From Candidatus Poribacteria bacterium (GTDB taxonomy: Bacteria > Poribacteria > WGA-4E > PCPOR2b), in assembly GCA_028819845.1 (NCBI GenBank), contig JAPPKS010000012.1, positions 62,001 to 126,000 on the forward strand: 64,000 nucleotides of DNA, written 5' to 3'. Positions 29,246 to 30,315 of this stretch are shown one piece after another. The notes under the pieces are model-generated. The model made no database searches. It was not told the origin of the DNA and saw nothing but the letters and a program-made list of their open reading frames with translations. Numbering within the stretch: position 1 is the first letter of the stretch; each line of letters begins with the position of its first letter. A program made the translations under genes and the position numbers.

Positions 29246-29274
29246 TTGACAAACCAACTTGCGTATGCTATGCT
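29246..29274 (+). promoter_or_regulatory. Sigma70 promoter of the dapB leader
   Basis: A perfect TTGACA (29246-29251) is followed after exactly 17 bases by TATGCT (29269-29274). Transcription would begin near 29281, about 235 bases before the dapB start and directly ahead of the structured leader. Confidence 0.72.
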
Positions 29275-29280
29275 ATCACC

Positions 29281-29420
29281 ATCTCAATAAGCGAAAGGGG
29301 GTGATCATTCTGTCATTTAGCGGAATGGTCAAGGGAGGTGCGGCCTCTTGAGGGGCCGTCCCTCCCTTGACTATTAATCCAGCTACAAGGCGGGGCTAAT
29401 TTTTAGCCCCGCTTTTTATT
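29281..29420 (+). ncRNA. Candidate structured leader or small RNA upstream of dapB
   Basis: Downstream of a near-consensus promoter lies a compact 140-nt unit that ends in a terminator. It starts with AAAGGGGGTGATC (29295-29307), very close to the complement of the 16S rRNA 3' end. A hairpin follows in which GTCAAGGGAGG (29328-29338) pairs perfectly with CCTCCCTTGAC (29361-29371), with an inner CGGCC/GGCCG stem. The terminator is at 29390-29420. It could be an attenuator for dapB or an independent small RNA. It matches no riboswitch class recognised by eye. Confidence 0.5.
29390..29420 (+). terminator. Rho-independent terminator in front of dapB
   Basis: GCGGGGCTAA (29390-29399) pairs perfectly with TTAGCCCCGC (29403-29412) across a three-base loop, followed by TTTTTATTT. 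This textbook terminator lies about 100 bases ahead of dapB on the same strand, so transcripts from the 29246 promoter must either stop here or read through into dapB. Confidence 0.85.
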
Positions 29421-29517
29421 TCGAGTTACACATAACGGCAAATACGCCACGCTTCAAAAATGTTGAAAGCATGATTGGGTAAACATCTCATCACGTATGG
29501 ACAAGGAAGAACGCAAG

Positions 29518-30315
29518 ATGATTCGCGTAATTATAGATGGTGTGTGTGGACGAATGGGCAAACTGCTGGCGCAGGGTGTGACCCGGCAGAAGGACATGCA
29601 ACTTGTCGGTTCGGTAGAATTTGCCGGACACCCCAATGTCGGTGAAGATGCTGGCGAGAAGTTGGGAATAGGGTGGCTCGGCGTACCCATAAGCGGGAAC
29701 CTTTCTGAAGTTGTCAGTGACAGCGATGTTGTCATCGAATTTACCAAACCTGAAGCGACCCTTGATAACCTCCGAACAGTAGTTGAAGCAAACCGGGCGA
29801 TGGTAATTGGAACAACCGGTTTTACGGTCAATCAACTCGCCGAAATACAAGCAATAGCGGCGGCAATCCGCTGTGTGATGGCGCCAAATATGAGTGTCGG
29901 CGTCAATGTAATGTTACAAGCGATTCAGCTAGTCGCAAAGGCGCTCGGTGATGATTACGATGTTGAGGTCATTGAGGCGCACCATAACCAAAAGGTAGAC
30001 GCTCCAAGCGGGACAGCGATTCGCATCGCAGAAACCCTATCCGCCACTCTTGACAGAAGTCTACCCGAAGCGGCAGTTTACGGCCGCCATGGGATTATTG
30101 GGGAGCGTACAGAAAAGGAGATTGGGATACACGCCATTCGAGGCGGGGATATCGCTGGCGACCACACAGTACTCTTCGCTGGAGCAGGCGAGCGAATTGA
30201 AATTGTGCATCGCGCACACACGGCCGAAGCTTTTGCGAAAGGGGCAATCCGTGCAGCAAGGTGGGTCGTAGCGGCACCGCCGGGATTGCACGATATTGGT
30301 GAAGTATTGTTTTGA
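29518..30315 (+). CDS. dapB: 4-hydroxy-tetrahydrodipicolinate reductase
   Basis: This 265-residue enzyme performs the NAD(P)H-dependent reduction in the lysine/diaminopimelate pathway. Motifs are the nucleotide loop IDGVCGRMGK at residues 6-15, IEFTKPEATLDNL, GTTGFT, and the catalytic and substrate-binding stretch EAHHNQKVDAPSGTA near residue 150. The GGAAG site 10 bases before ATG 29518 makes it preferable to the ATG seven codons earlier. The upstream terminator hints at control by attenuation. The DapA-family gene at 59-60 kb is probably not its pathway partner, so the true dapA may lie elsewhere. Confidence 0.95.
   Translation: MIRVIIDGVCGRMGKLLAQGVTRQKDMQLVGSVEFAGHPNVGEDAGEKLGIGWLGVPISGNLSEVVSDSDVVIEFTKPEATLDNLRTVVEANRAMVIGTTGFTVNQLAEIQAIAAAIRCVMAPNMSVGVNVMLQAIQLVAKALGDDYDVEVIEAHHNQKVDAPSGTAIRIAETLSATLDRSLPEAAVYGRHGIIGERTEKEIGIHAIRGGDIAGDHTVLFAGAGERIEIVHRAHTAEAFAKGAIRAARWVVAAPPGLHDIGEVLF

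Follow-up and report, generated by a model that had tools for sequence, protein, structure and literature searches.

What is encoded between dapB and the divergent gene next to it in a Candidatus Poribacteria genome, and does it control the gene behind it? The locus lies in a window of 64,000 nucleotides, the whole stretch of DNA analysed here, which is part of a 4.6-Mb, 35-contig genome (G000:C26:62001-126000). On one side of the element is a divergent YCF48-like gene (PF14870, 28123-29061, minus strand), and on the other is dapB, whose closest relatives are found in Candidatus Poribacteria MAGs. A gene resembling this YCF48-like gene lies directly 3' of dapB in family f2, and many f3 genomes carry a tandem pair of adjacent dapB matches (for example, G032:C57:27824-29502). 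An earlier note on this DNA proposed a structured leader or small RNA ending in a terminator, perhaps an attenuator of lysine synthesis, and named compensatory changes in the stems as a check.

Much of the anatomy described in that note was borne out (Table 1). The promoter is indeed near consensus, with the -35 hexamer at 29246-29251, a spacer of 17 and the -10 hexamer at 29269-29274; the perfect 11-bp hairpin is present, pairing GTCAAGGGAGG (29328-29338) with CCTCCCTTGAC (29361-29371) and enclosing an inner stem; and the terminator stands ahead of dapB, about 80-100 nt 5' of the start of the gene. The description of one segment as 'anti-Shine-Dalgarno-like' has to be reversed: AAAGGGGGTGATC is itself SD-like, and most relatives have the form AAAGGAGGTGATC here. 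Two features had been overlooked, namely hairpin P1 and a frame of 14 codons including the stop (13 residues). Across the copies described below, the promoter scores 8-11 of 12 (9-11 in 12 of 15 copies, and 8 in G007, G011 and G014), a terminator was read in every case, and the leader measures from about 140 nt in the window up to about 230 nt in relatives.

Table 1. Features of the element and the next gene, in window positions
Feature	Positions	Strand	Basis
Promoter TTGACA-17-TATGCT, extended -10 (TG)	29246-29274	+	10/12 consensus matches
SD1, AAAGGGGGTGATC	29294-29306	+	Complementary over its full length to the 16S 3' tail (one G.U wobble)
Hairpin P1, GATCATTC/GAATGGTC	29303-29330	+	Compensatory changes; 5' strand extends to the start codon
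Micro-ORF CTG...TGA, MSFSGMVKGGAAS then stop	29310-29351	+	In-frame NTG 5-9 nt past SD1 and frame open in 14/14 copies with SD1
Hairpin P2	29328-29371	+	Folding, compensatory changes; stop codon in the apical loop region
SD2, internal GGAGG	29334-29338	+	7 nt ahead of the last sense codon
Intrinsic terminator and T-run	29387-29419	+	Stem 29387-29415, T-run to about 29419; -20.7 kcal/mol
dapB, next gene	29497-30315	+	PF01113/PF05173; conserved start probably 29518 (the start used in relatives)

Both folding and comparison with relatives support a structured RNA, as the earlier note had proposed. The stretch 29280-29420 folds at -73.7 kcal/mol, against -42.2 +/- 3.8 kcal/mol for shuffles (z -8.36), and none of 200 shuffles did as well. 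P1 pairs the end of the SD and the start region with the strand that precedes P2, and P2 is built around GGGAGG. In 8 aligned sequences, 98.1% of the stem cells are paired and 4 pairs have changed on both sides, the compensatory pattern that the note had named, compared with 37-62% and 0-2 pairs in slid controls. With two f4 sequences added, 93.5% of the cells are paired and 5 pairs have changed on both sides (1-5 in slid controls); the version slid by -3 ties at 5 double-changed pairs, and in this enlarged test weight is placed on the percentage paired and the covariation score. In G067, P1 is made of different letters with the pairing kept. Genus g2 and G002 have a second, similar hairpin arm after P2, and G003 has an inserted inner hairpin. 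The least conserved part is the P1 loop, which varies in length and letters. A conserved unpaired seed for pairing in trans is absent, the SD being the only conserved unpaired stretch.

Could the RNA be a sponge that binds CsrA through its GGA motifs? The element does contain repeated AnGGAnG-like motifs, which resemble the CsrA-binding consensus. However, these motifs lie mainly in stems, and PF02599 was matched in just 3 of the 15 carriers (G002, G003 and G067) and in none of the other 12, the window's genome among them. The absence of CsrA from 12 of 15 carriers largely refutes the idea, which we consider scarcely credible.

The element is carried by 15 of 84 genomes of the phylum: all 9 of family f1, both of f2, all 3 of f4 and the single f8 genome. 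It was accepted in none of the 58 f3, 2 f5, 1 f6, 6 f7, 1 f9 and 1 f10 genomes. A DNA search gave a match in 10 of 58 genomes, one of which is that of the window. With up to 2 mismatches allowed, each of the 9 f1 and 2 f2 genomes has a single copy of the core GGAATGRTCAAGGGAGGTGC; covariance models added G011, G014, G016 and G067, each confirmed by reading. Essentially, each genome has one clear copy. A further copy in G014 (L210, G014:C58:2356-2443; frame MTMRGVIS, then stop) is degenerate and was left out of the counts. From the g2 copy in G007 (L017, G007:C84) some 40 nt are missing, SD1 and the 5' strand of P1 among them, by deletion or assembly error; a promoter spacing of TTGACA-17-TATCAT can be read over the resulting join. 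Lacking SD1, this copy was left out of the counts on the reading frame, which refer to 14 copies and not 15.

Other candidates were discarded. In f3, weak model matches (G013, G068, G077) and two-mismatch pattern matches (G035, G075) were rejected on reading, and pattern matches in G058, G059, G061, G065, G012:C7 and G007:C152 were dropped as chance or coding. A search of 386 genomes, Poribacteria included, under filters strict enough to miss the known G016 copy, gave one weak match outside the phylum (G360), which was rejected for want of an SD. A phage origin was also considered: ATGRTCAWGGGAGGTGY gave 17 stretches in viral contigs, none of which, by eye, has the SD-hairpin arrangement, and these are read as chance. 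Two of the 17 have a loose AAGGRGG-like word upstream without the element.

Is the frame translated? Across copies the micro-ORF has 13-16 codons and begins with NTG at 5-9 nt from the SD. The f4 copies start with ATG, 7 nt past the SD, and their frames read MSNYDMIMGGAVS, MSNYDMIMGGVIS and MCLSQTVVGGNCSF, each followed by a stop; the other copies (f1, f2, f8) start with CTG or TTG at 5-9 nt and read, for example, MSFSGMVKGGAAS in the window, MLPSSGMIKGGAVF in genus g2, MLADFSGMVKGGADS in f2, MLLPSCSGMIMGGAVS in G003 and MIDSQMTKGGLRFS in G067, again each with a stop. The stop codons differ (TGA, TAG, TAA) yet stay stops at the same place, in or beside the P2 loop, in all 14 copies that retain the SD, and the distance from the GGAGG of SD2 to the last sense codon is 7 nt in 12 of the 14 and 10 nt in the other 2. 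Among 7 compared sequences, the GGA-GGT frame is the only one of the three that is open in all, and its substitution score is the highest and the only clearly positive one (0.42, against -0.76 and 0.02). An in-frame NTG at 5-10 nt is found in 8 of 8 sequences, where spacer shuffling gives 7-11% for each, although the sequences are not independent. Variable sites are spread over codon positions 1, 2 and 3. The signal for a translated micro-ORF is comparative and consists of an open frame, an SD and an in-frame NTG.

The SD1 13-mer is used elsewhere in these genomes. Eight further sites in relatives were read: four are rRNA, where the opposite strand gives the 16S 3' end, and in the other four the 13-mer lies ahead of the start codon, ATG or TTG, of an ordinary gene. 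An SD of the form AAAGGAGGTGATC stands ahead of a small basic protein (L168, L172) that starts with ATG in G004 and TTG in G012.

Stem pairing can account for some of the conservation seen in the peptide. It might then be asked whether the frame is simply a by-product of stem conservation and GGAGG-rich sequence, in an RNA that is a purely non-coding leader or small RNA. Compensatory changes do cover many of the substitutions, GGAGG is conserved at the nucleotide level, and the starts in f1, f2 and f8 are not ATG. Against this stand the ATG of the f4 copies, 7 nt from the SD, the three different stop codons at one place and the in-frame NTG in all 14 copies, and we regard a non-coding RNA as unlikely.

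The gene behind the element is not always dapB. It is dapB in G000, G002, G003, G009 and G012 (5 genomes of two families), a PF06439 hydrolase in six g2 genomes (Pfam was run on one of the six g2 proteins), a LamG protein (PF13385) in G011 and G014, tyrA in G016, followed by cmk and then an acyltransferase-like gene, and EutN_CcmL (PF03319; EutN/CcmL) in G067. With five kinds of downstream gene among 15 carriers, there is no conserved tie to one pathway. This result bears directly on the proposal of an attenuator for lysine synthesis: the next gene is something other than dapB in 10 of 15 carriers. Moreover, a run of Lys codons was not found in the 14 frames read, each peptide having 0 or 1 Lys (one in the window, none in G003, G011, G014 and G016). 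At all of 25 inspected dapB loci that lack the element, no upstream terminator was found by a simple scan, one that also misses the two long f2 terminators. Lysine control is therefore not supported as the role of the element. What survives of the proposal is a possible attenuator in a looser sense, a terminated leader that would supply the one promoter that can be seen for the gene behind it.

Several observations nevertheless tie the element to whatever gene follows. The next gene is co-directional in 15 of 15 carriers, and its ATG lies 12-20 nt from the end of the T-run in 8 of 15. After or over the terminator, the best promoter score is 0-8 of 12, which is not above random (for 130 nt, median 7 and 90th percentile 8). 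By contrast, 17 of the 25 element-free dapB loci reach 9-10 for a promoter, a rough contrast as the stretches differ in length. Among PF06439 loci, a start motif was seen in 7 of 12 read, one of them a carrier; of the six others (all f3), five appear by eye to have a promoter of the TTGACA type immediately upstream, and the element is missing from all six. The upstream neighbors of the dapB carriers differ (YCF48-like, no Pfam match, aldo/keto reductase, glyoxalase-like; that of G012 was untyped), while the pairing of element and dapB persists. Co-direction, the short gaps, the lack of a later promoter above chance and this persistence suggest that the element is transcribed as a single unit with the gene behind it, even though the gene is of five kinds across lineages.

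If the neighbor can change, however, need it matter at all? The element might be a stand-alone small mRNA or dual-function RNA whose peptide and/or RNA acts in trans, the neighbor being incidental and reached by terminator leakage. One clear copy per genome with changing neighbors is what would be expected, as are an intergenic position with its own promoter and terminator (to judge by sequence), a conserved micro-ORF and the failure to find an antiterminator (see below). The same linkage to the next gene argues the other way, since it is co-directional throughout and within 20 nt in 8 of 15 carriers, and dapB outlasts the upstream neighbors; the P1 loop, a possible seed site, is also the least conserved part. 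We consider action in trans a serious contender, though somewhat less probable than the cis leader described next; the two readings are close in weight.

Our tentative preference, at a little short of an even chance, is that the element is a translated, attenuator-like, terminator-ended 5' leader, with read-through supplying transcripts of the next gene. From the anatomy and its conservation we infer that the RNA is transcribed, translated and predominantly terminated. Transcription would mostly stop at the terminator, leaving a stable small RNA, and would continue into the next gene in a minority of cases. The loading of ribosomes onto the micro-ORF and their slow termination there would set the folding of P1 and P2, and hence RNA lifetime and/or read-through, the ribosome acting at the start codon in P1 and at the GGAGG ahead of the stop in P2. 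Internal SD-like sequences can slow ribosomes, and the spacing of SD2 suggests that one may be held at the P2 stop codon. The target would have been switched in evolution (dapB, PF06439, LamG, the tyrA operon, EutN), and because it changed, the leader may sense something general, such as translation state, rather than lysine.

Some observations speak against such a leader. In 9 of 9 copies tested, upstream pairing with the terminator arm is no better than in shuffles, and classical antitermination is therefore unsupported. In the window, the micro-ORF stop lies about 35 nt from the terminator stem, a distance at which a ribosome terminating there would not reach the stem to open it. This counts against the leader reading, as does the loss of SD1 and the P1 5' strand in G007. 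It is also odd for a cis regulator to stand before five unrelated genes at about one copy per genome. Perhaps the element is a portable ribosome-holding RNA that reports or buffers ribosome availability, so that an operon behind a leaky terminator is tuned to translation state. SD1 would load a ribosome by up to 13 base pairs onto a micro-ORF of just 13-16 codons, and the GGAGG, at an initiation-like spacing of 7 nt, would hold the terminating ribosome at the hairpin stop codon. We rate this idea improbable. The 5' leader that we favor would in any case offer a compact test case for the influence of an internal SD just ahead of a stop codon on termination, on the stability of the RNA and on transcriptional read-through.

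How does the element compare with known systems? Neither the window nor 9 element loci gave an Rfam match at the gathering threshold, the best sub-threshold match being CC2171 (24.8 bits, against a gathering threshold of 75). Like the lysine riboswitch (RF00168), the element lies upstream of a lysine gene; unlike it, as the earlier note had anticipated, it gave no match to that family at gathering, nor is the family among the 16 matches listed up to E 10. The element represents a conserved RNA family without an Rfam match, in a phylum for which a search of the open-access literature on small RNAs and RNA motifs listed no paper on regulatory RNAs. Its features suggest a small regulatory leader or mini-gene of a kind not described before, and not a lysine switch.

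With ribosome-dependent amino-acid attenuators the element shares a predicted promoter ahead of a leader and an intrinsic terminator before a gene. In arrest-peptide leaders of the TnaC and ErmBL type, regulatory RNA structure goes together with a short, conserved peptide close to a stop codon. The element seems to share this design, but no known arrest motif was recognised in it and its conservation is largely at the nucleotide level (GGAGG, stems). Dual-function sRNAs such as Spot 42/SpfP and SR1/SR1P have their own promoter and terminator and a micro-ORF, and the element resembles them as a putative small transcript of the same design; it differs in having no conserved single-stranded seed and in its tight linkage to a promoterless downstream gene. 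In Sinorhizobium meliloti, rnTrpL/peTrpL is a leader-peptide attenuator released as a small RNA, and the likeness extends to a short RNA with an SD and hairpins, to a micro-ORF of about the same length, and to an intrinsic terminator ahead of a gene. One report describes the leader peptide as required for regulation beyond attenuation (PMC7298713). Compared with rnTrpL/peTrpL, the element has no regulatory codon run, no antiterminator pairing and no conserved downstream gene; the same apparently translated, terminated leader stands before five unrelated genes, as if leader function had been uncoupled from a fixed target.
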